28,310 nt of DNA from a virus. Positions 1 to 20,945 of the stretch are shown here, piece by piece. The stretch is from the IMG/VR virus record IMGVR_UViG_3300043567_000392, positions 1-28,310 of that record. One strand, written 5' to 3'. The notes beneath the pieces are model-generated. The model ran no database searches and had not been told where the DNA came from. It saw only the letters and a program-made list of their open reading frames with translations. Within the stretch, counting starts at the first letter, position 1, and each line of letters opens with the position of its first letter. The position numbers and the translations under genes were made by a program.

Positions 1-332
1 CCGTCATTCAAGATAACAGTATCATTTAAACGGAATGGGTGAGAAGCTAATGCGAATATATTTCCAGAACGAGTAATTCCAGTACCAACTGGTCTTAAAC
101 GACCTTCTTCAGACCATTTGATCAAGTCAGACTGGATAGCCATTTCTTGACCCATTTTTTCTAAGAAACCTTTTAATGATTGGTTTCCGTAACGAGCAAA
201 TTCTTTCTCGTATAACTCAGGTAAATTCTGAGTAGTAAAGTCGAAATCAGCAGCCTCTAAATAGTTAGAGTTTAAGATTTCTTTTGTAGCTGTAGGAGTT
301 AATTTAACTCCAGGATTTGCATTTAATGCCAT
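1..332 (-). CDS. Probable major capsid protein, N-terminal 110 residues (runs off the left edge)
   Basis: The reverse-strand reading frame opens at an ATG at 332 with MALNANPGVKLTPTATKE and continues without a stop to position 1, giving about 110 residues. Seen motifs include QSDLIKWSEEGRLRPVGTG, a segment I associate with capsid proteins of Bacteroidota and marine phages. The family call comes mainly from position: TerL, portal and an acidic scaffold-like protein lie directly upstream in the classical head-gene order, and only 21 bases separate this start from the scaffold-like gene. The leader is a run of T/A bases with no Shine-Dalgarno sequence, as is usual in Bacteroidota. It is probably co-transcribed with the scaffold-like gene from the promoter at 1406. 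The fold and the C-terminus cannot be judged because the gene is cut by the window edge. Confidence 0.7.
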   Translation of the reverse strand, partial: MALNANPGVKLTPTATKEILNSNYLEAADFDFTTQNLPELYEKEFARYGNQSLKGFLEKMGQEMAIQSDLIKWSEEGRLRPVGTGITRSGNIFALASHPFRLNDTVILND

Positions 333-1431: not shown

Positions 1432-3873
1432 TTATCGTGGTTCAAATTCTGATAAAGAAAATCCATCTAAACTATCCTCGTTACTTTCGAATGACATAGC
1501 TGGTAAATCTTTCTTACGCTGCTCTATCATCTTTGATTGTTGTGTTGCTTGTAGCTTTGTTCTATCGTCTTTTCTATCCTCCTTCATTTGCTCCTTACTA
1601 TTCATACCCTCAACTTCAATTCCTTTCAGTTGCATTTGGTATTCAAACTCTTTCTGCATCAACATTAACTTCATATCTACCTCGACCTTCATTTTCTCTA
1701 TCTCTGCACTAACTCTAGCTTGTTCAACCATAGCTTTACTTTGACCCTCTAACTGAATTAACTGAGCTTTGCTTTCTGATGCTGCTTGAGCTGATTGCAC
1801 ATTTCCTTGTGTTTGAGCTTGTATCTCTTGCATTTTTTGCTCTTGTCTCTCCTTCATTCTTTTCTCTTTCTTAATTGAAAGATACTTAGTGGCCATAGAT
1901 AAATTCTTAATACCAAGAATTGCATACTTATCTTCTACTCCAAGATTACCTTGTTGTATTTCAAATGTAATATCACCTTCTAGTTTAGCTCTCTCTTCTT
2001 CATCTGGAGTTAACTCAATATTTATTGCAAAGTCGTGTAAGTATATGTCTTGTATTTTTTCTAACGCAGTTACATTGTTTGATGAAATCTTATTGATAAG
2101 ATCTTTCTTCATTTCAGAGAACTGTAAAACGTCTGAAATTCTTATTGTAATACATTTAGCAAGTTCTCTAGTAATAAACATACTTCCTGTTAATATGTGT
2201 CTTGTTGCCACATTTGAAGAGTATGCTGCCATTTTTTGAATACCAACTAAACTATTTTTATCAGGATTACTAGCATCAATAGCTTGGTTTATTCCAGTTA
2301 CAGAAGCAATCATATCCATAGATATTTGAATTGAGTTCCATAAAGAAGATATTTTATCTTGTCCAGATGAATGTCTTATCTCCTGAATAGGCACCTTGGC
2401 ATTGTTAAATTCACCACCAACAGTTGAACTTCTACCAATAACAGAACCTGTTTGAAAATACATATTCATAGCATCTTCAACCGTATAGGCATTACCTCCA
2501 CCAAGTTTAATACCAGCTAACCCATCAATATCAATAAATTGTCCATCAGGAACAACCCTTTGTTTTACTTGTTGTAGTTTTAACCAAGACATTTGAATGT
2601 CATCTGCAAATGGAATCATTCTATTAACAGTTGAATCAATATATCCTTTATACATTTTAGGTGCAATACCTATATAGTTTGGTTGTACTTTATTTAGATT
2701 AGAATTCTCCTTAACCATATTTTTAGAAACTTCCCACTTCAATAAAATATTTGTACCTAATACTAAGATACCTTCAAACCAAATTTCTTCTACCTTGGTT
2801 AATTTTTCAAAATCAGCATCACCTGTTCCTTTGTATACAAAATCATTTTCTTTTGCAATAACCTTAATACCACCTTTTGAGTTCTTTTTCTTTTTCCAAA
2901 CTTTCTCTCTAGATGTTTTATAGTTAAAATAAAGAAGTCCTAATTTACCATCTAATACATCTTGTGATTGTCCATTAAGATTTAATTCGTAATAGTTGTT
3001 CCAAGATGATGATATGCTTTGTAATCTTTGTTTTTGTTCGTTACTTAATTCTGGAAATTCTTTATATACTTCAGATAAATTTGTATTTTTATATTCTCCA
3101 TAATAGAAACAATCTTGAAAGTATGGATCTTCAGTGTAAGACCATATAAGGTTTGCTGGGTCAACATACTCAACTTTAATCCCGTCTCCAGGAACAAATC
3201 TATGTTTACCAAAACCAGCTCCTACCTCAATTATATCTTTCTCAATTCTTCTTCTAGTGACTTCGTTATAGTTGTTTTCATTAAACACAGTCTCTACAGC
3301 TACTTCAACAGCTTGTTCGATAGGTGGTTTAAATTCAAACTCCATTTTAATATCTATCTCGTTTTCAGATTCTGGTATTTGGTCAATAGGAACAGAAGCT
3401 AAGTCGAATCCAGTTTGTTTTTTTGCCTCTAATATAAAATCTTTGGCAATCATATCAGTTTGAAGAGCTTTTCTCTTTTTTGATTTTTCTTCTACAGATG
3501 TAGGGTCAACAGCAATAGCGTTTATAGAGAACTCTCTTTGAGCCATACCATTTGCTAGAATATCTACATACTTAGGAATAACAGGAACAACTTTCCAGTC
3601 AAGATTAAGGAATGACATATCTCCATTTACAGCAAAGTATTCTTTATACTTAGCTACGCTTTGAAGACCATTGGCATACATTCTTCTTTTATGAAACTCA
3701 TCTCTTTGTTGATAATACTTACAAGTAGAGCCTTCTCTCTTAAACCATTCGTATTGAATAGCCTCTGCTACTTGGGTTCCAAAATCTGTACCTTTTTGAA
3801 CCTCAAATGGTACGTTTTGACTTGGGAAACTTCTGTAAGTAATGGAAATACCTTCCGTTTTCTTTTTTATCAT
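1432..3873 (-). CDS. Portal protein
   Basis: This 813-residue protein would form the dodecameric ring through which DNA enters and leaves the capsid and on which TerL docks. The N-terminal half holds long segments typical of large portal proteins in Bacteroidota phages, including WKVVPVIPKYVDILANGMAQ near residues 95-115 and a central stretch with KIPKYVD-like and SLWNSIQISMDMIASVTGINQ-type helices (about residues 510-530), which I read as the wing/stem region. From about residue 675 to 790 the protein is a Gln/Lys/Glu-rich coiled coil (KERQEQKMQEIQAQTQ and onward), matching the helical barrel of long portals. The stop lies 55 bases upstream of the scaffold-like start, and the gene follows TerL by 5 bases, so translation is probably coupled. 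At over 800 residues it is at the long end for portals, similar to those of crAss-like and related podoviruses; I cannot assign the phage to a family from this alone. Confidence 0.85.
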   Translation of the reverse strand: MIKKKTEGISITYRSFPSQNVPFEVQKGTDFGTQVAEAIQYEWFKREGSTCKYYQQRDEFHKRRMYANGLQSVAKYKEYFAVNGDMSFLNLDWKVVPVIPKYVDILANGMAQREFSINAIAVDPTSVEEKSKKRKALQTDMIAKDFILEAKKQTGFDLASVPIDQIPESENEIDIKMEFEFKPPIEQAVEVAVETVFNENNYNEVTRRRIEKDIIEVGAGFGKHRFVPGDGIKVEYVDPANLIWSYTEDPYFQDCFYYGEYKNTNLSEVYKEFPELSNEQKQRLQSISSSWNNYYELNLNGQSQDVLDGKLGLLYFNYKTSREKVWKKKKNSKGGIKVIAKENDFVYKGTGDADFEKLTKVEEIWFEGILVLGTNILLKWEVSKNMVKENSNLNKVQPNYIGIAPKMYKGYIDSTVNRMIPFADDIQMSWLKLQQVKQRVVPDGQFIDIDGLAGIKLGGGNAYTVEDAMNMYFQTGSVIGRSSTVGGEFNNAKVPIQEIRHSSGQDKISSLWNSIQISMDMIASVTGINQAIDASNPDKNSLVGIQKMAAYSSNVATRHILTGSMFITRELAKCITIRISDVLQFSEMKKDLINKISSNNVTALEKIQDIYLHDFAINIELTPDEEERAKLEGDITFEIQQGNLGVEDKYAILGIKNLSMATKYLSIKKEKRMKERQEQKMQEIQAQTQGNVQSAQAASESKAQLIQLEGQSKAMVEQARVSAEIEKMKVEVDMKLMLMQKEFEYQMQLKGIEVEGMNSKEQMKEDRKDDRTKLQATQQSKMIEQRKKDLPAMSFESNEDSLDGFSLSEFEPR

Positions 3874-3878
3874 TTTAT

Positions 3879-6509
3879 TTATCTATTATAAGTCTTCAAA
3901 TTTATAACTATATCCTCAGCAACTCTTTGAGTTGGAGTATACATCTTTCTGTTTACAGCCATAATGGCTAGTCCAGAACTAATAGAGGCGTCAAATTTCG
4001 TTCTATTATTTATATCAAATTTCATCCAGTCTTTCAATGTATCGTTGAATAGTATGTTTTGAGGGATATCTCCATCTTCACTAATTATTCCGACATACTT
4101 CTCTATGTATGATTCAATAGCTGTTGCGTGCATTTGCTTAACATCTTCAGATGAGTTAGGCATACCGCCTAGTTCTTTCTCTGTTGGCGATAATCTATTC
4201 TCAGGCTTATCAAATCTAGTTATACTAAACCCTCTATACCCTCTATTCTTAAAGTGATATAAAAGTCTTGGTTTATTATTCTCTGCCAGTATAGGCATAC
4301 CATAAAATACACAAGCCATTAATACATCTTCAAAAAATATCTCTGCGGTCTTTGGTCTTGCTACATACTCTAAAAAGAATGTATTGTTTGGTGCATTTGA
4401 AAAACTAAGTCCTGTGAGTCCGTGTAAAGCACCCTTAGACGCTCTATTTGTATCCTCATCATAAGAACCATCTTTTCTAACACCCTCTACAGTTCCTGAT
4501 ATATCATATGTATCACAACCAAAGGATCCTATATCTCCATTCAAAGGGTGTTTTGAAATCCCTCCGAAGTTATTCTTCATCTCAAATTTGTTCCTCATCT
4601 CCTCTGGAGGAATCCAAGAAACCTTAAACCTACCCTTTTCATTTGGGTGCCACTCAACTATAGTATCTCTAATTCCATCTTTCCAATGGAAATTACCAGT
4701 TACTATTTTATTATCCGCATCGTGGTCTTCGTTAACCTTAATCTGTTCTAATATCTTCTCAATATTGAATGTTGACTGAAGAAGTTCATCTCTGAACGCT
4801 TCATCTATTGTCATTGGAAATGCTCTTAACTCTTCGTTGTAAGCAATATCGCTCTCTTTTCTTTTGCTACTTCTCTTTGCCTCTAAGAACTGAATACTAC
4901 CTACTGTCTTCTTGTCTCCGTGAACATTAATAAAATGATCTCCTTTTTCAACAAGCTCGTGACACACTCCGTATCTATCAGTAAACTCCTCCATATTCTT
5001 ATGAGCTGGCAAGAAGTAACAATATAAACCAGAAGGAGTTCTTCCAGTTATTGTATTCCTTTTACTTACTTTAGAGGATTTATATAATTTAAAAAATTCT
5101 TCACCTCCTTTATTCATAGCATTTACTGTCGATCCAATAAATGCCTTACCAACTACCTTACCACCTGTATCAAACGTAGGTGACACTTGGCCCCAGTGTT
5201 TCTCGTAGTTAGCTGGCCTTGTCCATTTAGATGCCTCATCACCTAAGTATCTATACATTCTTTGTCCGTCATAAGATGAATCTTTTGTTGGCTGATAATC
5301 TATAAATGTATTTAAGTAGTCATCTGTATTTGTATCTTTATTCTTTTTAAAACTTTTACTTCTATCTGTTGGTTTTGCAAACTCTAAGAAGTTCTTACTA
5401 TCCTCAGAACCCTTAACAACAGGCTTAAAGAAGAATGGTAAATTTAAATACCCGTATCTTAATTTTGAAAATGCCATCTTAGCATCTTCGTCTGATTTAG
5501 ATGTCATACCTATCCTTGCATTGGCAGTTGAAGTCGCATCATTTAATAACTGACATATAATCTGGTATGTAAAACCTGTACGTCTTGATTTAACGAATAA
5601 CTCACCTAAACATCTTGGATCTACAATACAAGCCTCTGTAAGATAAAACATATCTCTTTGAGCTGTTCTAAAATCCATATATGTACCTGTATCTTCCATC
5701 TTAACCCAGTTAAGTGCGAAGTAATGTGTTCCAGTTAGATATTCGGCCTTACCATTATTCATAAACCAAATACCCTCTCTTCTTCTTCTAAATTCCTCTA
5801 TTATGTATTCAGTGTATGATTCCGCATTATCTTGAGATAAACCCTTTGGAGGTTCTTGTCTTCTCCAGTACTGATCCTCTTTCTTTTCATTCCAAAATAA
5901 TATATCCTTTCTGTATGGAACTTTTGGTAGTGTAATAGTTAAGTCACCGACTTTCATTAAATCACCCTTAGTTCCTTTTGGATCTATCATTACTGAATCA
6001 TTATCTGAGTCGTACCATTCTTTATAGTAATTTTTTTTAGGTAAGAATTCACCAGTAGCAAATTTCTCAGGATAACCTCTCTTAAATTCATTTTCCTTTA
6101 AATTAATCTTATCTGCATCTATCTGCATTCTAAGTTCAATTAAAGATGAATCAATCTCTACAATCGCTTGATGTATTGATGGTTTAACCGATATAGCCAA
6201 ATGGTGTTTTGATGGATCTAAATCATCATAGTCTATCTTTGCTCTAAGAGCCTCTCTAAGTACGTTTAAGGCAATATCTCCAGCCTTAACTAGCCTTACT
6301 ACATATTTCTTAAATTTATCCTCAGATGGGGCGTTTGTGCTATTCTGCCACCTAAGAAGTAATTCCTTTCCGTACTTAAATGAATCAACCTTAGCTTTTA
6401 CGATTGTCTTTACCTTGTCTGGCTCAATCAAAGACATATCCGTGCCATACTCTAATCCTTCGATTACAGTTTCTACAGCAACTTCTATATCTCTACTTAG
6501 TCCAATCAT
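3879..6509 (-). CDS. Terminase large subunit (TerL), DNA-packaging ATPase and nuclease
   Basis: The 876-residue protein has both TerL domains. The ATPase contains a P-loop-like segment VKSRRTGFTY at 306-315, a Walker B strand ending in Asp-Glu at 424-425 (MYRYLGDEAS), and a coupling motif FIGSTV near 457-462. The RNase H-like nuclease domain shows Asp666 (GSFGCDTYD), Glu743 (MPILAEN) and Asp840 (RTKFDAS), the expected three acidic metal ligands. The P-loop is unusual: Phe313 stands where GKT/GKS has lysine, and a lysine lies five residues earlier at 307, so this protein may use a relocated P-loop lysine. A roughly 290-residue N-terminal extension precedes the ATPase, making the protein longer than most TerL (about 420-750 residues). 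Its start overlaps the stop of the GroES-like gene (ATGA-type, 4 bases), and portal follows after 5 bases. Confidence 0.93.
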   Translation of the reverse strand: MIGLSRDIEVAVETVIEGLEYGTDMSLIEPDKVKTIVKAKVDSFKYGKELLLRWQNSTNAPSEDKFKKYVVRLVKAGDIALNVLREALRAKIDYDDLDPSKHHLAISVKPSIHQAIVEIDSSLIELRMQIDADKINLKENEFKRGYPEKFATGEFLPKKNYYKEWYDSDNDSVMIDPKGTKGDLMKVGDLTITLPKVPYRKDILFWNEKKEDQYWRRQEPPKGLSQDNAESYTEYIIEEFRRRREGIWFMNNGKAEYLTGTHYFALNWVKMEDTGTYMDFRTAQRDMFYLTEACIVDPRCLGELFVKSRRTGFTYQIICQLLNDATSTANARIGMTSKSDEDAKMAFSKLRYGYLNLPFFFKPVVKGSEDSKNFLEFAKPTDRSKSFKKNKDTNTDDYLNTFIDYQPTKDSSYDGQRMYRYLGDEASKWTRPANYEKHWGQVSPTFDTGGKVVGKAFIGSTVNAMNKGGEEFFKLYKSSKVSKRNTITGRTPSGLYCYFLPAHKNMEEFTDRYGVCHELVEKGDHFINVHGDKKTVGSIQFLEAKRSSKRKESDIAYNEELRAFPMTIDEAFRDELLQSTFNIEKILEQIKVNEDHDADNKIVTGNFHWKDGIRDTIVEWHPNEKGRFKVSWIPPEEMRNKFEMKNNFGGISKHPLNGDIGSFGCDTYDISGTVEGVRKDGSYDEDTNRASKGALHGLTGLSFSNAPNNTFFLEYVARPKTAEIFFEDVLMACVFYGMPILAENNKPRLLYHFKNRGYRGFSITRFDKPENRLSPTEKELGGMPNSSEDVKQMHATAIESYIEKYVGIISEDGDIPQNILFNDTLKDWMKFDINNRTKFDASISSGLAIMAVNRKMYTPTQRVAEDIVINLKTYNR

Positions 6510-7048
6510 AAGTGCAATATAATTCTATTTTGATTAATCATATATAACTTCTCGTCAAATATGTTAAACTCATACTCTGAGTCTTTTTTAACACCAACTT
6601 TATCTCCTTGATTAAGTGATGTCATATCTCTATTCTTGTATTTAAGAATACATATTTGTTCATTCTCTTTATACCCCTCATACTTGTCTTCAATGTATGT
6701 TGGTTCTATAAAACAAAATGGAGGTAGTGCAATTTTATTTCCATCACACTTTATAACCATATATGCTAATTCTTTCTCTACATAGAATAAATCATCTTCA
6801 ATATGATACTTACTCTCTAGAGGAAATCCTTGGTTGTTGTATTGTATTCTAAATGTGTTGTGATGCACAATTATCAAATCACCAACCTCTACATCTCCTT
6901 CATAGCTAATAGGAGTAGATACAACCTCTGCAATTCTTTGCGTAAAGTTGTGGTCTTCAACGGATATGTTTAATACCAATCCATTAGAATTGTTTGAGTA
7001 CCTTTCGCTATTGAAAGGCCTCACTATGAAATAATGTGGACTTCTCAT
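6506..7048 (-). CDS. GroES-fold-like protein beside the terminase (function unproven)
   Basis: The 180-residue protein begins with MRSPHYFIVRPFNSERYSNN and GLVLNISVED, then VEVGDLIIVHHNTFR, and ends EFNIFDEKLYMINQNRIIL. This order (an xVxP start, a GLxL strand, a VxxGDxV strand, and a final strand before a terminal hydrophobic pair) follows the pattern of the GroES beta-barrel, where the equivalents are MxVxPLxD, GLxLP, VKVGDxV and YLIxxEDDILAV. An insertion of roughly 90 residues separates the halves. I have seen similar proteins with GDxIIVHHNxFR next to TerL in other aquatic phages, where they are called hypothetical or co-chaperonin-like. It could partner the GroEL encoded at 19100, or be a structural protein that reuses the barrel. 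It overlaps TerL by 4 bases and follows a 74-residue protein by 4 bases. Confidence 0.5.
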   Translation of the reverse strand: MRSPHYFIVRPFNSERYSNNSNGLVLNISVEDHNFTQRIAEVVSTPISYEGDVEVGDLIIVHHNTFRIQYNNQGFPLESKYHIEDDLFYVEKELAYMVIKCDGNKIALPPFCFIEPTYIEDKYEGYKENEQICILKYKNRDMTSLNQGDKVGVKKDSEYEFNIFDEKLYMINQNRIILHL

Positions 7049-7052
7049 AAGA

Positions 7053-7277
7053 TTATAATTGCGTATAGTATTCTATATGAATTACGTTGCTTATATTGAA
7101 TGATTTCCATATAGCTTTTACATCGCTATCTATTTCCTTTACATAGATGTCAAAGAACATTCCTTCTTTTATTATGTCTGAAATAACTCCAGAACCCCCG
7201 AATACATTACTATCAACCTGGTAATGCATTATATTATTATTATCCATTTTAACGGATATTTTTCTTACTAAACTCAT
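7053..7277 (-). CDS. Small protein of unknown function, first gene of the packaging operon
   Basis: Seventy-four residues (MSLVRKISVKMDNNN to HIEYYTQL), alternating short predicted strands with no recognisable motif, signal peptide or membrane segment. It is the first gene after the TATCTTTG promoter word at 7304 and lies 4 bases before the GroES-like gene, so it belongs to the packaging transcription unit. I do not recognise it. A small terminase subunit would fit the position, but there is no visible helix-turn-helix and the predicted beta content argues against it. Confidence 0.7.
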   Translation of the reverse strand: MSLVRKISVKMDNNNIMHYQVDSNVFGGSGVISDIIKEGMFFDIYVKEIDSDVKAIWKSFNISNVIHIEYYTQL

Positions 7278-10205: not shown

Positions 10206-13200
10206 TTATTTATTTATTAATTTGTTTACTAATTCTTTTAGCTCTTCTATTTGTTTTTGTTGTTCTTTTATCGCTTCAATTAATAGTGGTGTTAATTTAC
10301 CATAATCAAGAGTTTTATATCCTTGTCCTATTGGAGCGTCTCTTATTAACTCAGGTAAAACAGCCTCAACTTCTTGTGCTGATACACCAACCTCTAATCT
10401 TTTCTTATATCCTAGCTCTTGTGCTACCTCATTTGGTTCATAATAAAAACCGTTCAAAGATAATACTTTTTCTAGTGCATTTTCTATATTACCTTTTTTA
10501 TCCTTAAGCCTTTCATCAGAGTAATAAGCAACAATGTCACCAGCACATCTTATAGAATCACCAGTTGATGAACCATCAAAATAATATGATGAATTATTTC
10601 CATCGTAATATACAGGTGAATACATTGCTGTGGCTGACTGGACATAATTTGATGCATAAACATAACCCGTAGCTTCAGCGGTATTTAGTTTACTCGTACC
10701 AGCTGGGTCTAAATAGTATGCGGTGTTAGCGGTATCATAAAATATAGGGGCTCTAAGGCTTGTTTGCGACTGCGCTATATTCTCAAAATAAACGTTACCA
10801 TTTGGATTTAACTCCATATTAGTATATCTAGTTCCGCTAGTGTTTGCCGTCAAGAAATACCAAGTCCCATTAGAAAGCATTCTCATATAGGCTTGCCCAA
10901 AACTTGTATTTGGTCTGCTAAAGCCATAAGCGCCTACCCCATCATTATATACATTGTATCCAAATCCAGCCCCATCCCAAGTTATGCCTGGTTCCGAGCA
11001 CCATGCTCTTAGTGTAACAATCCCAGTGCCAGCTCCATTATTTGCTGCTGGAAGTTCATTTTGTATATAAGAATTACTATGCCCCCCGGAGTTTGTTATA
11101 GAAGCCCTAGTTACAACACTACCAAGATTAGATGTTCCATTGGGGTCTAGATAATAATATGTATTATTTGAATCGTAGAAAATAGGCGCTCTAAAATCAA
11201 CAGCTGCTGTAATGTTTCTAGAAGTATTAATGCTTAATGCTTCAACAGTATTATACGCGATTCTAAGTGAATCTGATGCTCCGCTGTCTACTAAAAAGTT
11301 CCACCTATTAATTTCATTTGATGAAAACAAGTTTAGTCCATCATCCCACGCTGAGCCTATTGCTACTATACTTGTTTTTCTTATTACAGAACCTCCTGCT
11401 GGGTCTAAATAATAAGCTGTATTGATTGAATCATAAAATATGGGTGCTCTTAAGCTGCTATCAGATTGCAAGTAACTTCTGGTAACTAATACAGTACCAT
11501 TGTGATCCATACTCATACCTGTTTTTGAACCAGTAGCAAATGAGTCAGTGGTAGCAAAAAACATTTTTGTTCCATAAGATCCAGAACTTTGCACATATAC
11601 GCCTGCTTGAGCATTTGTATTGCCCCATGTCCATATAACGCCATTCGCATAATCCGATGTGCCTCCCATTAGTGTCAGCCCATAAGATGTTAGCCCCGGC
11701 GTCGCTGCATTAAAACTATTTTGGCTATTTAATAATAACTTGTTAAAATTACTTGTAGAAGCAAAATCACCATAATAATTAGTATCATTTCTATCATAAT
11801 ATATATCCGCATACATTTGCCCATATACTTCAGCAGCACTATTAGTTGTTCTTAATATCCAACTACCTGTATTTCCTAAAAACCCTAATGAACCGCCATT
11901 GCAATGTATATATCTAGTTTCTCCCTGATCATTATCCACAAAATCAATTTGAGGCACATTCTGTTGTATTGTTAATCTATCAAATACTGCTCTATAAATA
12001 TTAGATGTTCCGTTAAGATCTAAATAGTATCCTGTATTGCCTGAGTCATAGAATATAGGTGCTCTAAATGAACCTGACGCTGTGCTATCTGTTCCTGAAA
12101 TCAATAATGCTCTATCATTTCCTGTTACAAATGTAAATGTTCCTCCAGAATTCCCACTTGATTGAAATGTTATATTTGCTGGTGCTGACACAGGAGTTGG
12201 CGCTCCATTCGTATCATATCCAGCTCTAATCCATAAAGATTGAGTTCCTGTCGGTGAAACAAGTTCAATTCCTGATGTAGAAGATTGTTGTACTTTAAAA
12301 TTACCTGAAACATAAGACGAGCCATTTGGATCTAAATAATATCCTGTGTTATCCGAATCATAGAATATAGGCGCTCTAAAATCTCCTGAAGCTGACATAG
12401 TAGATAAACCACTATGTAAAACAGACCACCATGGTGTACTCCAAGTCCCAGAATATCCAGAACGCCACACTAAATTTGTACTTCCTCCATGACCTGCAGC
12501 TATTTGCCACATTGTATCTGATGCTGCTAAATGAAGTATTGGAGCATAAGAAGGGTTTCCTCCATTACCATTTTCATTTCTAATGACTCTTGAATATCCA
12601 CTACTAATATTACTTGAATTGTTTCCTAAAAAAGTGGTATAAAATCCAGCTGAATTACCTGTAGTATCTCCTGTAGTAGCAATATTCCAAGTTCCTGAAG
12701 CTCCCGCACCTGTTAAAGAAGGGGCATAAGAACCAACACTATTAGTATCAATAACTCTGTATGCTCCCTCATTTTGATAAAAGAATCCATCAGCATAAGG
12801 ATGTATCTGTCCTCCTGAGTAAGCTAAGCCAAACTCTCCACCATCTGGAGAAGTGGCTCCTCTAAGTCTTGTAGAAGAAGCTAAAGAAGCTGGTTTCCAA
12901 CTTCCTTCTAAAGGCCAAGCATAGTTAGTAAAATTAACAGAATCTAAAACAGTAGCTTCATTGCCACCATATGTATTTTTACCAACATATAATGTTCCGC
13001 TTTCCCATTTAACTTGCCAGCCATACGATGCATTATGCAACCCTGATATATTTGAATTAGGCCCAATCATTAATATAACTTGACCATTGTTTAATCCAGC
13101 AAATTCTATACCATTGTAACCATTTCTAGACCCACTTATTCTCCAGGCTCCGTAACTACCATTGTTTGGTGATATGTGAGCTGAGTTAACAGACGAATAA

Positions 13201-15659
13201 AAACCGTGATCTCCAGTTAGAAGGGTCCAAGTTCTAAATGTATTATATGTGCCAGATGTTCCTGTGTCTATTGAAGATAAAACTGATGTGCCAGCTGCAT
13301 CTAAATAATAACTAGTATTATTAGAGTCATAAAAAATAGGAGCATATACACCTCCATAAACTGTTGTGTTTTGTGAGGCATCTATTTGCATAGCCAAAGC
13401 AGATGTTGACCCTGAGTAGAATTTAAACGACCCCTTACCGCTTGTGTTTCCTTGTGATTTAAACAACATATCATAATCAGCTCCAACTAAAAGCCTAGCA
13501 TCATAGTTTGATGCTCCACCATATAATATTAATTTATCTCCTGCACCTGCTCCATTTATTGTCGTATTTATAGCACTATATCTACTAGAATCTCCAAATG
13601 AAATTGCTTGGTATTGTCTTGATGTACTTGCAAAATCTCCATAATAGTTTGTGTCATTTGAATCATAGAATATAGGAGCCCTAAAATCACCACTTGTTAT
13701 ATAACTTCCTGTACCTCCTGTTTTATTTGTTAAAGAATCAAAAGAAACTGATATATTTGAAGTTGTAACAACAGGAGCATTAGCCCAATATAATATACCG
13801 TCAGTTCTCATTTCTAAAAACTTTCCAACATTACCGCTAATATGAAACGCAATACCTGTTGTTGTAGCACTGTATGACTCGGTCCATATAGCCGCTGTTG
13901 TGTAATCATTGTCTGCTTGCGCTTTCCTAGACTTTATTGTATTATCCGCTATTACTAAACTTAAGCTACTTGTTCCGTTTGGGTTTACATAATATGCGGT
14001 ATTATCTAAGTCATAAAATATAGGAGCACGCATATCCGCTGTTCCGTATGCTCTAAGTAAATAAGCGGTGTCAGTCCCGTAATAATATGTACTTTGGTTA
14101 TTTAAGTACATATTAGAATTTACACCTTTACGAATATCCCAAGCAGCCCAATCCCCATTTAAAAAGCCATAGCTACCAGCATCTCCATATAATTGAAATC
14201 TAAATGCCCCAGAACTGCTTTGTCCTAAGATACCCATTTCAGAAGAGTTTGCTGCAGTTTTTATTAATATATTACTGGAATTTCCGCTACCGTAATAGTG
14301 ACCCGCAATATAAGTACTAGCTAAATTTGAAGTACTAGCTGGATCAGTATAATAAGCTGTATTGTTAGAATCGTAGAATATCGGTGCTCTAAAGTCAGAT
14401 GAAGCATAAGCTGTTCCATTTATTTCAAGCTTTTGACTTGGACTATCAGTACCAATACCAACATTACCATTACCTTGAATAGTCATTAAAATGTCTGTCT
14501 TTGGAGCTGATGCATTAAATAAGTTTCTAAAACGCATTTTACCATTTGTTCCATCAAAAAAACTTTCAATTCTTGAAAAAGTTGTAGGTGAGGCAGCTGA
14601 ATTAAAAACTGCATCTATACAGTGTGATTCCCCTGAAATCCAACCACCAATACCTCCTATCATTATATCACGATACGCTGTGGCAGTATTTGTACCAGAG
14701 TTTACCAATAGACTTCCTTCAACTTGTAATTTCTGAGCAGGACTTACTGTTCCAATTCCTACGTTTGTACCATTATCATAAATTAAACTATTACCTAATG
14801 TAGTAGTTCCTGTAAATTTAGAAACATAGTTTGTTGTACCACTTGCATTAGCCTTTGAATTAAATGTAGTCCAATCTGCTGAACTTAACGCTCCTCTATT
14901 AACAGCTGATGCTGTAGGCAAATTGAATGTATGTGTATCTGTAGCAGATGATATATTAAAATCCGTACCTGCTGTTCCAGGAGCAAAATATTGCACTTGT
15001 TTGGTTAAACCGTTTAATGCGGTTAATCCCGTAGAGAATGTTGTAATCACTTCGCTCAGATGGCCATTTTGGGTATGCATTGTAATAGTTCTACCCGAGT
15101 GAGTTACATATACTCTAACCGCTAATCTATCCGTAACCAGTAATGTAGTTGCGGGAACCGCTAAAGGTGTAAAATAAGCATCAATAGCTGTGCCGTTAGT
15201 AATACCTTCAGGTGCTGCTGAACTACTAGCTATTAAAGTAAAGACACCACCAGAAGAATATTTATATAATTCAACATAGAAAGATGGAGAACCACCGCTT
15301 GAACTTGCATTAAAATAAATTTCAAAGTTCCAATTTCCCGCTGGTATATTAAGTTGATTTGGTGAGGCTACATCTGTTAAGAATGAAGCTATATATCCAT
15401 TTGCATTGATAGAAAAATCAGCAGCTGTACCAGTATTAGCTACTGGGCTCATTTGATAATAACCACCAACACTTGACACTGTTCCTCCATTAAAGTAGAA
15501 TACTTGACTAGATCCACCTCCACCTGGCGTTTGAGGAGGAGTAATCCATTCCGTTTTAGTTCCTGTAGAAGATAGCACTTGACCAGCAGTACCTGTAAAC
15601 CCGAATGAGTCTATAAGTCCAGCTTGTGTTTCTATATCACTTTTAAATTTTTGAGACAT
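10206..15659 (-). CDS. Giant tail fibre with repeated YD-NT-YY-DP motifs and C-terminal S74 intramolecular chaperone
   Basis: 1817 residues. The N-terminus (MSQKFKSDIETQAGLIDSFG, then TGTAGQVLSSTG) is a fibre attachment/coiled module. Residues about 40-200 form a beta-rich domain, followed by NVGIGTVSPAQKLQVEG-type trimeric shaft repeats near 295 and 395. From about residue 420 to 1700 there are eleven copies of a motif of the form RAPIFYDSNNTAYYLDPAGTS, spaced from about 80 to 320 residues, separated by variable Gly/Ser/Asn-rich domains. The last 110 residues are a peptidase S74 chaperone: YSDERLKDKKGNIENAL, then GVSAQEVEAVLPEL, LDYGKLTPLLIEAIKEQQKQ and a terminal coiled coil. The Ser and Lys of SDERLK are the expected catalytic pair, so the chaperone should trimerise the fibre and cut itself off. 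It probably recognises the host surface. Confidence 0.9.
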   Translation of the reverse strand: MSQKFKSDIETQAGLIDSFGFTGTAGQVLSSTGTKTEWITPPQTPGGGGSSQVFYFNGGTVSSVGGYYQMSPVANTGTAADFSINANGYIASFLTDVASPNQLNIPAGNWNFEIYFNASSSGGSPSFYVELYKYSSGGVFTLIASSSAAPEGITNGTAIDAYFTPLAVPATTLLVTDRLAVRVYVTHSGRTITMHTQNGHLSEVITTFSTGLTALNGLTKQVQYFAPGTAGTDFNISSATDTHTFNLPTASAVNRGALSSADWTTFNSKANASGTTNYVSKFTGTTTLGNSLIYDNGTNVGIGTVSPAQKLQVEGSLLVNSGTNTATAYRDIMIGGIGGWISGESHCIDAVFNSAASPTTFSRIESFFDGTNGKMRFRNLFNASAPKTDILMTIQGNGNVGIGTDSPSQKLEINGTAYASSDFRAPIFYDSNNTAYYTDPASTSNLASTYIAGHYYGSGNSSNILIKTAANSSEMGILGQSSSGAFRFQLYGDAGSYGFLNGDWAAWDIRKGVNSNMYLNNQSTYYYGTDTAYLLRAYGTADMRAPIFYDLDNTAYYVNPNGTSSLSLVIADNTIKSRKAQADNDYTTAAIWTESYSATTTGIAFHISGNVGKFLEMRTDGILYWANAPVVTTSNISVSFDSLTNKTGGTGSYITSGDFRAPIFYDSNDTNYYGDFASTSRQYQAISFGDSSRYSAINTTINGAGAGDKLILYGGASNYDARLLVGADYDMLFKSQGNTSGKGSFKFYSGSTSALAMQIDASQNTTVYGGVYAPIFYDSNNTSYYLDAAGTSVLSSIDTGTSGTYNTFRTWTLLTGDHGFYSSVNSAHISPNNGSYGAWRISGSRNGYNGIEFAGLNNGQVILMIGPNSNISGLHNASYGWQVKWESGTLYVGKNTYGGNEATVLDSVNFTNYAWPLEGSWKPASLASSTRLRGATSPDGGEFGLAYSGGQIHPYADGFFYQNEGAYRVIDTNSVGSYAPSLTGAGASGTWNIATTGDTTGNSAGFYTTFLGNNSSNISSGYSRVIRNENGNGGNPSYAPILHLAASDTMWQIAAGHGGSTNLVWRSGYSGTWSTPWWSVLHSGLSTMSASGDFRAPIFYDSDNTGYYLDPNGSSYVSGNFKVQQSSTSGIELVSPTGTQSLWIRAGYDTNGAPTPVSAPANITFQSSGNSGGTFTFVTGNDRALLISGTDSTASGSFRAPIFYDSGNTGYYLDLNGTSNIYRAVFDRLTIQQNVPQIDFVDNDQGETRYIHCNGGSLGFLGNTGSWILRTTNSAAEVYGQMYADIYYDRNDTNYYGDFASTSNFNKLLLNSQNSFNAATPGLTSYGLTLMGGTSDYANGVIWTWGNTNAQAGVYVQSSGSYGTKMFFATTDSFATGSKTGMSMDHNGTVLVTRSYLQSDSSLRAPIFYDSINTAYYLDPAGGSVIRKTSIVAIGSAWDDGLNLFSSNEINRWNFLVDSGASDSLRIAYNTVEALSINTSRNITAAVDFRAPIFYDSNNTYYYLDPNGTSNLGSVVTRASITNSGGHSNSYIQNELPAANNGAGTGIVTLRAWCSEPGITWDGAGFGYNVYNDGVGAYGFSRPNTSFGQAYMRMLSNGTWYFLTANTSGTRYTNMELNPNGNVYFENIAQSQTSLRAPIFYDTANTAYYLDPAGTSKLNTAEATGYVYASNYVQSATAMYSPVYYDGNNSSYYFDGSSTGDSIRCAGDIVAYYSDERLKDKKGNIENALEKVLSLNGFYYEPNEVAQELGYKKRLEVGVSAQEVEAVLPELIRDAPIGQGYKTLDYGKLTPLLIEAIKEQQKQIEELKELVNKLINK
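10556..14397 (-). repeat. Eleven dispersed in-frame copies of an approximately 65-70 bp fibre repeat
   Basis: Approximate copies at 10556-10625, 10688-10758, 11131-11199, 11389-11455, 11751-11818, 12003-12072, 12318-12383, 13284-13349, 13620-13688, 13968-14037 and 14330-14397. Each encodes a variant of RAPIFYDsxNTxYYxDPxGTS. Copies at 11751 and 13620 form a subtype ending YYGDFASTS, and the copy nearest the C-terminus (10556) is the most diverged (SPVYYDGNNSSYYFD). DNA identity between some copies is high enough to promote recombination and domain shuffling. Confidence 0.85.
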
Positions 15660-19041: not shown

Positions 19042-19077
19042 TTTGCAAAGATACGAAATAAAAAAAGTGTATATTTG
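19042..19077 (+). promoter_or_regulatory. Rightward promoter for groEL-groES
   Basis: A TTTG at 19042-19045 and TATATTTG at 19070-19077 match the Bacteroidota -33 and -7 elements; the 24-base spacing is longer than the usual 17-23. The -7 word lies 22 bases before the groEL ATG at 19100. The -33 element overlaps the leftward -7 word because CTTTGCAAAG at 19041-19050 is palindromic. Confidence 0.6.
19046..19053 (-). promoter_or_regulatory. Leftward promoter for the lysis and fibre operon
   Basis: The minus strand reads CGTATCTTTGC, an exact TAnnTTTG match identical over ten bases to sites at 7304 and 24468. A transcript starting a few bases downstream would reach the ATG at 19030 with a leader of roughly 10 bases. 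Nothing interrupts the operon clearly before 9376. Confidence 0.6.
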
Positions 19078-19099: not shown

Positions 19100-20677
19100 A
19101 TGATAATTAAAGAAGTTAAATTTAATGAAAAGGCAAAAGAACCCTTGATTAAAGGGATATCTACTATTTGCGATGCTGTATCCTCAACTATGGGATATAG
19201 AGGTAGAACTGTGCTTATAGAGAGTCCAGGAGGACTTCCTATAGTTACAAAAGATGGTGTATCTGTAGCTGATTCCATTTTCTTAGAAGATGCTACCGAA
19301 AGTCTTGGTTGTGAGTTTGTGAAACAAGCTTGTAGAAAAACAGTTAATGAGGCTGGTGACGGAACAACTGGAACTGCTGTACTTACAAAATCAATTATTG
19401 ATAATAGTCAGAAATACCTAAAGAGTGGAGAATCTGCTATTGATTTAAAGAATGGTATTGAAAGTGGAGTTAAAGAGGTTGTTGAGTATATTAAAGAGAC
19501 ATCTAAAGAGGTTGATGATTCATACCTATTTGATGTAGCTAGAATATCAGCAAATAATGACTCTGAACTTGGAGAGATAATTGCAAATGCATTTATATCT
19601 GCTGGTAAGAATGGAGTTGTATCATATGAACAGTCTGATAATTCGGATACATATGTTGACTTTATTGACGGTATGCCAATTGCTAGAGGTTATGAGTTTG
19701 AAGGTTTTGTAAATAAACCCGAGAACAGAACTATTGAGTTTAATGGAAATCCATTGATCCTATTATCAAATAGAAGATTTCAAAATATTAGAGAGCTATT
19801 GCCTGTAGTAGAATACTGCCACAAAGTAAATAAAGAGTTGTTAATTATCTCTGAAATGGAGTTTGAGGTTATGAAGGTATTGTACGCCAACAAGAAGAAT
19901 GGCCTTAAGGTTGCAACAATTATTCCACCTAGTATTGGTGAGAAGAGGAGAGATTATTTAACCGATATTTCTTTAGCTACTGGAGGTTTGATTATAGACC
20001 TTGATACCTCTACAAATATCGATGGGTATGATATGGATGAGTTACTAGGTAAGTGTAGTAGACTTATTGTAACTAAAGACGATACTGTTCTATTCTTTAA
20101 TGAGAAACCTAATGCAGACAAAGTTCAATCAAAGATTGAAGAGTTAAACAAAGTAATAAAGAATTCTAACAACAATCTTGAGAAGGATTATCTTAAGGAT
20201 CGCATCTCTAAGCTTGCTTGTGGTGTTTCTGTGATTAAGGTTGGAGGAACAACAGAGGTTGAGATTAAGGAGAAGATTGATAGGGTTGATGACGCAATTA
20301 ACGCTGTTAAGAGTGCAATCTCTGAAGGTGTGGTTGTAGGAGGAGGATTAGCACTATATAACGCCTCTCTAAAGCTAGTTCCTACATCAAAAGGATATAA
20401 GTGCTTACTTGAGTCAATTCAAGCTCCTATGCGTACTATATTGAATAATGCAGGTGTATCTTTAAGTGATATTGAGGGAGATTTATTAACACACAAAGAT
20501 AATTACGGATACGATGTCAAGGATTATGAAATTGCAGATATGTTTGATAAGGGTATTATAGATCCATCAAAGGTTATTAGATTATCCTTAGAGAATGCTG
20601 CGAGTGTAGCTACAACAGTTTTATTAACAAACACAACCATAACACATAAGAGAAGCAATGAAGGTAGTTCTAAGTAA
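19100..20677 (+). CDS. groEL: Phage-encoded chaperonin GroEL (Hsp60), 525 residues
   Basis: The start at 19100 (MIIKEVKFNEKAKEPLIKG) aligns with the bacterial GroEL start; a TTG 57 bases earlier only adds promoter sequence. All three chaperonin domains are present. The ATP-site aspartates fall at the same numbers as in E. coli GroEL: Asp52 (KDGVSVAD), Asp87 (EAGDGTTGTA) and Asp398 (RVDDAI). ISEGVVVGGGLAL at 407-419 is the conserved equatorial loop, and FVNKPENRT with PLILLSNRRFQNIRELLPV belong to the apical domain. Differences: Gly91 replaces the usual Thr in GDGTTTAT, and the flexible GGM tail is missing (it ends NEGSSK). The gene overlaps groES by 20 bases. It likely refolds phage capsid or fibre proteins. 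Confidence 0.97.
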   Translation: MIIKEVKFNEKAKEPLIKGISTICDAVSSTMGYRGRTVLIESPGGLPIVTKDGVSVADSIFLEDATESLGCEFVKQACRKTVNEAGDGTTGTAVLTKSIIDNSQKYLKSGESAIDLKNGIESGVKEVVEYIKETSKEVDDSYLFDVARISANNDSELGEIIANAFISAGKNGVVSYEQSDNSDTYVDFIDGMPIARGYEFEGFVNKPENRTIEFNGNPLILLSNRRFQNIRELLPVVEYCHKVNKELLIISEMEFEVMKVLYANKKNGLKVATIIPPSIGEKRRDYLTDISLATGGLIIDLDTSTNIDGYDMDELLGKCSRLIVTKDDTVLFFNEKPNADKVQSKIEELNKVIKNSNNNLEKDYLKDRISKLACGVSVIKVGGTTEVEIKEKIDRVDDAINAVKSAISEGVVVGGGLALYNASLKLVPTSKGYKCLLESIQAPMRTILNNAGVSLSDIEGDLLTHKDNYGYDVKDYEIADMFDKGIIDPSKVIRLSLENAASVATTVLLTNTTITHKRSNEGSSK

Positions 20678-20909
20678 TATTTTAGTTAAAGAGATTAAAG
20701 AGGATGTAAAGACTAGCAGTGGTCTTTACTTAGGTGATGGTCAAGATGTCAAGTTTCACAGAGGTGAAGTAATTGAGATCGGGGAGAATGTAGATAAGGT
20801 TAATGTTGGCGAGACCATTTGGTTTGACAGGCATAGAACATATCCAATCAATTATCAAGGAGTTGAATATTTAGTTATGGGATACGAGAATGTAGTAATT
20901 GTAGAGTAA
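20658..20909 (+). CDS. groES: Phage-encoded co-chaperonin GroES, 83 residues
   Basis: The protein starts MKVVLSNILVKEIKED and keeps the GroES outline: a short mobile-loop region around residues 16-30 (DVKTSSGLYLGDGQD), GEVIEIGENVDKVNVGETIW at about 36-55, and a final strand GVEYLVMGYENVVIVE. The mobile loop, which docks GroES on GroEL through a hydrophobic tripeptide, here seems to use LYL after the Ser-Ser-Gly turn, where bacterial proteins have IVL. Length is slightly below bacterial GroES (about 95). It follows groEL, the reverse of the usual bacterial groES-groEL order, and starts inside the groEL end. A bidirectional terminator follows 8 bases after its stop. Confidence 0.9.
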   Translation: MKVVLSNILVKEIKEDVKTSSGLYLGDGQDVKFHRGEVIEIGENVDKVNVGETIWFDRHRTYPINYQGVEYLVMGYENVVIVE

Positions 20910-20917
20910 AAAAAAAT

Positions 20918-20945
20918 AGAGAGGGTTTAATTGCCCTCTCTTTTT
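20918..20945. terminator. Bidirectional intrinsic terminator between convergent operons
   Basis: AGAGAGGG at 20918-20925 pairs with CCCTCTCT at 20934-20941, an 8-bp perfect stem with loop TTTAATTG. A-rich sequence precedes it (20908-20916) and T-rich sequence follows (20941-20945), so it serves groES on the plus strand and the 230-residue gene on the minus strand, whose stop codon lies in the loop. Confidence 0.88.

Follow-up and report, generated by a model that had tools for sequence, protein, structure and literature searches.

The window, by which we mean the whole 28.3-kb IMG/VR fragment analysed here, carries three chaperonin genes at two places. On the plus strand, groEL (19100-20677) encodes a 525-aa group I chaperonin (Cpn60) and is followed by groES (20658-20909), which encodes an 83-aa single-domain Cpn10; the pair and the structural genes lie on opposite strands. 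On the minus strand, at 6506-7048, is a gene for a 180-aa protein, a predicted second co-chaperonin with two tandem Cpn10 domains (Cpn20-like), which was absent from the initial annotation. It is located directly upstream of the gene for the terminase large subunit (TerL; 3879-6509, minus strand; phrog_6681, E=7e-151), which overlaps its end. Beyond the terminase are a portal protein gene (1432-3873, minus strand; phrog_6547, E=6e-128) and the first part of a gene, truncated by the end of the window, for a capsid-like structural protein of the virion (3-332, minus strand; E=2.5e-15 to phrog_13704, "virion structural protein", in the category head and packaging). The gene at 10206-15659 (minus strand) encodes an 1817-aa tail fibre, matched by tail-fibre PHROGs, whose C terminus is an S74 intramolecular chaperone of its own (PF13884, E=2.5e-10).

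The window comes from a virus of Flavobacterium-like bacteria. Its nearest relative is Elemovirus, a group of phages that infect the Baltic Sea bacterium Flavobacterium sp. BAL314; about half of the first 25 kb of the window is alignable with it, at 82% DNA identity. Sixty-eight GenBank records of Elemovirus contain both groEL and groES, mostly annotated and in the same order as in the window, and the GroEL-GroES pair itself is thus already known. Any match to the window GroEL was found in only 254 of 50,697 phage records. The tail-fibre module of Elemovirus is unlike that of the window: the part of the elemoE genome matching 10206-15659 contains only short tail-fibre/YapH genes, and the module appears to have been swapped.

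The groEL-groES pair

The window GroEL matches Pfam PF00118 with 182.3 bits (cut-off 34.3; E=2e-53) over residues 25-517, a full-length Cpn60 domain, and phrog_5725 with E=2e-125. The Cpn10 lid gene encoded separately beside it matches PF00166 with 43.3 bits (cut-off 21.1; E=4e-11) as well as phrog_3188. Both Pfam scores are far above the curated cut-offs and therefore not due to chance, which bears out the full group I GroEL-GroES pair described in the initial annotation. Alignment to enterobacterial GroEL also confirms that the catalytic residues D52, D87 and D398 (E. coli numbering) are retained, as had been claimed, and D495 is likewise retained at the aligned position. The GGM tail, correctly reported as absent, is missing from every phage member of the groEL clade examined. 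Another claimed peculiarity, Gly at residue 91, is indeed present in the window and, among the compared sequences, restricted to the Elemovirus-like clade, but it is not fixed within that clade: the motif is GDGTTG in the window and three relatives (L003, L005, and L165) and GDSTTC in elemoE and two others (L012 and L013), and the position is thus variable among close relatives. At full length, this phosphate-binding motif of the ATP site, normally an invariant GDGTTTAT, is GDGTTGTA in the window and GDSTTCTA in L012 (892-2448), L013 (6001-7284), and L002 (24715-26277), so that it varies inside one phage clade. Several apical positions with a role in substrate and GroES binding in E. coli are altered in the window GroEL (S201F, Y203G, V263Y, and V264A), and contacts with partners are therefore not guaranteed. 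The dN/dS ratio of groEL is about 0.05-0.11; for groEL, groES, and the double Cpn10 gene together the values range over 0.007-0.21 (with dS often saturated), indicating purifying selection.

In the window GroES, the mobile loop falls only ~1 residue short of that in Enterobacteriaceae; it reads GLYL instead of GIVL and has the hydrophobic tripeptide (SSGLYLGDG aligned with AGGIVLTGS). The part that is shortened is the roof hairpin, with ~12 residues vs. 21, ~9 being missing relative to E. coli GroES; the "short mobile loop" previously attributed to this protein is therefore a loop of about normal length. The roof hairpin is a variable, non-defining trait of Cpn10 proteins, and T4 gp31 is without it.

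The coordinates of the two genes agree with the reversed order, groEL then groES, and the 20-nt overlap noted earlier. The overlap is 17 nt in L003, 4 nt in L012, and 1 nt in Elemovirus, where GroEL lacks a 5-residue C-terminal extension; as it differs between 1 and 20 nt among relatives, its extent is not conserved. The order groEL then Cpn10 is found in members of the window's GroEL clade, including Maribacter phage Panino with its unannotated Cpn10, and the Cpn10 gene is upstream of groEL in immuto, Callevirus, and DAC22. Since close and deeper relatives share it, groEL-then-Cpn10 is a trait of an old phage lineage, and reversed order and overlap are lineage traits rather than an oddity of the window phage. 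Existing annotations of such genes are uneven. In Panino (L016), the single-domain Cpn10 just downstream of groEL (5709-5975) is annotated as a hypothetical protein, and the protein annotated as GroES is the double-domain one. In Bacteroides phage DAC22 (L019), the adjacent Cpn10-like and groEL genes (3718-5617) are both annotated as hypothetical.

Upstream of groEL, ~22 nt before its ATG, is a promoter-like -7 box, TATATTTG (19070-19077, plus strand), of the form TAnnTTTG, the consensus of the Bacteroidota promoter -7 box. The same box is found 5' of groEL in eight relatives (L003, L005, L012, L013, L164, L165, L155, and L167) and is kept where the surrounding DNA differs. A TTG start for groEL at 19043 was considered and rejected, because the promoter-like box falls downstream of it. 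After groES is a terminator-like hairpin (20918-20941, plus strand) with a 9-bp stem, a 6-nt loop, a T tail, and a predicted -16.5 kcal/mol; it has a T-run on either strand, and similar hairpins are present in L003, L012, and L164. Given the box and the hairpin, groEL-groES is probably its own transcription unit, transcribed from a predicted Bacteroidota-type promoter.

The 180-aa protein and its distribution

The protein encoded at 6506-7048 is twice the size of GroES and matches PHROG 13932, "co-chaperonin GroES" (E=1e-15), a profile that also matches in nine of 14 control genomes. We divide it into domain 1 (residues ~1-104), with SNGLVLN as its mobile loop, and domain 2 (residues ~105-180), where the loop is lost. 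An AlphaFold model based on 27 sequences from the window and IMG/VR has a pLDDT of 84.5 and a pTM of 0.79, with low pLDDT at residues ~20-31, where the mobile loop is expected. When this model was searched against the PDB with Foldseek, the best match was chloroplast Cpn20 (7ekq_R; E=6e-5, probability 1.0) and the second was Cpn23; VIA-align placed 153 aligned residues of 1-180 on Cpn20 with Z 9.9 and rmsd 4.6, and residues 104-180 on several GroES structures with Z 9-9.8. The N half folded alone yielded GroES/Cpn10 proteins as all of its top 10 Foldseek matches, individually weak (E 0.07-0.3), and Z up to 7.4 in VIA-align. In profile comparisons against phage and bacterial Cpn10s, the C half scored 45.2 and the N half 31.0, whereas none of the 200 column shuffles made per half scored above 18.8.

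Pfam Cpn10 reaches only seven of the 27 double-domain proteins (best E=0.003), phmmer found no match of the 180-aa protein in the PDB, and its profile gave only weak GroES matches there (E ~0.5). Direct profile comparison of the N half with the C half gave no significant match (probability 1.7%), so the duplication is visible only through Cpn10. Foldseek, VIA-align, and the profiles compared with shuffles together support a protein predicted to consist of two Cpn10 domains in tandem. The mobile loop of domain 2 is deleted in the Elemovirus lineage and longer in Callevirus; as a mobile loop is not present in each domain, we do not claim membership in the plant Cpn20 family. The open-licence literature searched contained no description of a tandem Cpn10 from a phage, and annotations seen say at most "GroES" or "cpn10". 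What stands out is a three-gene phage chaperonin set with a predicted double-domain lid in the style of chloroplasts.

The double gene is present in 77 GenBank phage records, 76 of which bear the name of Flavobacterium, Cellulophaga or Maribacter. In elemoE, Callevirus (Calle_1 and phi38:1), and Panino the genes follow the order small ORF, double Cpn10, TerL, and portal, and MW202828 has one extra small ORF between the double Cpn10 and TerL. In the window the small gene encodes 74 aa (7053-7277, minus strand), and all relatives checked have a gene of about this size before the double Cpn10. A ~195-aa gene before TerL in crAss-like phages (phi14:2 and cr108_1) was considered as a further double Cpn10 and rejected, as it had no match in PHROG and profile searches.

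GroEL was present in all five distinct GenBank records with the double gene that were checked. Among 19 tandem-bearing records, 12 contain GroEL, and the identical 12 contain the single-domain Cpn10; the remaining seven, all IMG/VR fragments, have neither. The three long contigs examined among these seven (G012, G013, and G016) end near the groEL position and are therefore uninformative on whether the tandem occurs without GroEL. None of nine other GroEL-bearing phages has the double gene.

Origin of the phage GroEL

We built a maximum-likelihood tree of 32 GroELs, including seven cellular ones and a reconstructed Bacteroidota-group ancestor (9rwr). A single clade (support 98/97) unites 12 phage GroELs, that of the window among them, from loci where groES follows groEL; they belong to Elemovirus-like phages, to contigs that are MW202828-like or from soil, and to Maribacter phage Panino. 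Outside this clade, which is on a long stem, fall all seven cellular GroELs and the reconstructed ancestor; deep joins in the tree are unsure because of long branches. A scan of species genomes with the GroEL of "Acinetobacter phage MD-2021a" gave proteobacterial chromosomes only, and the tree therefore has no Bacteroidota chromosomal GroEL other than the reconstructed ancestor. The MD-2021a record (L015, CAKLQH020000021) is in the phage collection, but its groESL region lies on an ordinary contig of an Acinetobacter chromosome and is not phage DNA, with a GroEL 97% identical to that of A. haemolyticus.

The groEL-groES pair might have been acquired recently from a host and work simply as a copy of that host's chaperonin, and its strand, opposite to that of its neighbors, together with its own promoter-like box and terminator, is common in cargo genes. 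However, the best cellular matches to the window GroEL, which are on plasmids, are only ~38% identical, the phage clade has a long stem, and a pattern scan of 84,980 species genomes, limited to what the pattern can detect, found no relative. The gene order also differs from the usual cellular groES-groEL. Within the cellular GroELs sampled, the phylogeny called for in the initial annotation does not point to a recent pick-up from one host genus, and we consider recent acquisition, already disfavoured, highly improbable. The same annotation had described the pair as diverged and self-contained; the phage clade, the retained ATPase residues, the purifying selection, and the promoter-like box and terminator agree with this description, in which self-containment is only probable.

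A proposed phage chaperonin and its relation to known systems

We propose that the three genes encode a phage chaperonin with GroEL, a single Cpn10, and a fused two-Cpn10 lid, most likely for virion proteins, and estimate the probability of this reading at about two in three. The system would have three parts, namely the GroEL ring protein, the single-domain Cpn10 from the same small operon, and the fused double Cpn10 from the head-packaging operon; groEL-groES would have a Bacteroidota-type promoter to itself, and the fused lid would be expressed together with the structural genes. GroEL would bind unfolded virion proteins, ATP would drive their encapsulation, and Cpn10-type proteins would cap the ring. 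The first candidate for cargo is the capsid-like protein (phrog_13704), which in elemo has 452 aa (~51 kDa) and would plausibly fit a chaperonin cage, which holds ~60 kDa (PMC5780408). The 1817-residue fibre, also suggested earlier as cargo, is a poor candidate: at ~200 kDa it is above the cage size and it ends in its own Peptidase_S74 self-chaperone, and it is therefore an unlikely client.

The 180-aa protein may have a different role. T4 gp31 is a single domain that works with host GroEL, and gp31 (1g31) is among the structure matches of the 180-aa protein, which could similarly be dedicated to capping the host GroEL, or form an independent lid as a homo-oligomer, with the phage GroEL using only its adjoining GroES. 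This would be consistent with the location of the 180-aa gene, on another operon and strand than groEL-groES, and with the single Cpn10 and GroEL always occurring together. Nevertheless, GroEL accompanies the double gene in every tandem-bearing GenBank genome checked and the nine phages with other GroELs lack it, which suggests a partnership with this GroEL type, and we regard a gp31-like role as unlikely. It is quite unlikely, in our estimate, that the 180-aa protein is instead a virion or packaging component on a Cpn10 fold, such as a connector or terminase cofactor, leaving GroEL-GroES as the only chaperonin. In divergent phages the double gene keeps its place upstream of TerL, adjoining it or separated from it by one small gene, and domain 2 has no clear mobile loop, as might be expected of such a component; however, domain 1 retains a flexible loop with the hydrophobic tripeptide at the low-pLDDT residues, and the double gene never occurred without GroEL in the GenBank genomes checked. 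Further, the phi38:1 gene is labelled "hypothetical", and the portal and its neighbors are labelled structural by similarity to phi18:1.

Within the proposed three-part chaperonin, the number of rings and the composition of the lid may vary. In the Elemovirus clade, the inter-ring contact E461 is lost, with S, R, K or N in its place, and V464 has become D or S (V464D in the window). The phage GroEL may therefore form single rings or weak double rings, and single-ring states of other phage chaperonins have been reported (PMC5934643). On the other hand, R452 is retained in the window and ring number does not follow from residue identity alone; a phage GroEL that works as a single ring, its altered contacts reflecting loss of the double ring, is compatible with our preferred explanation and a reasonable possibility, although the odds are somewhat against it. 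By analogy to chloroplasts, where mixed lids of seven domains exist (PMC5780408), the phage GroEL of these Bacteroidota podoviruses might carry a mixed lid of three double and one single Cpn10, likewise seven domains, forming an asymmetric chamber tuned to virion proteins. In PDB 7ekq, the seven domains come from four chains, of which two are Cpn20 and the others Cpn23 and Cpn11. Such a lid in the phages is speculative and rather doubtful.

The closest known system is that of Elemovirus (vB_FspP_elemoA-F; NC_055854), which has the three chaperonin genes in common with the window, in identical order and positions, with identities of 91% for GroEL, 96% for GroES, and 86% for the 180-aa protein. 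The counterpart of the latter, gp30, is annotated as "co-chaperonin GroES", and no annotation seen mentions a double domain. Phage-encoded GroEL-like ATPases are also known as gp146 of phage EL, gp246 of OBP, and the AR9 chaperonin. Those of EL and OBP need no co-chaperonin, and that of EL is ~22% identical to GroEL (PMC7185714, PMC5934643), whereas the window GroEL is nearer to bacterial GroEL and has Cpn10 partners. T4 gp31 and other phage GroES substitutes are also phage-encoded co-chaperonins with a Cpn10 fold, probably for virion proteins; unlike gp31, the double-domain protein of the window coexists with a phage GroEL. If our proposal is true, some phages bring a whole folding machine and not merely a GroES substitute.

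The likeness to the chloroplast system lies in Cpn20/Cpn23 and Cpn11 of Chlamydomonas (7ekq), where two Cpn10 domains are likewise arranged head-to-tail in one chain, and in the occurrence of a double Cpn10 beside a single-domain Cpn10 and Cpn60 (PMC5780408). It is a likeness of predicted fold: the phage 180-aa protein is ~12% identical to chloroplast Cpn20, and its domain 2 in the Elemovirus lineage is without a mobile loop. In the literature, double-domain co-chaperonins are presented as a feature of chloroplasts (PMC5780408). If phages have a fused lid too, such lids would have arisen more than once or been exchanged, and the phage genes would offer a compact, expressible system in which to ask why a ring of seven-fold symmetry would use two-domain lids.
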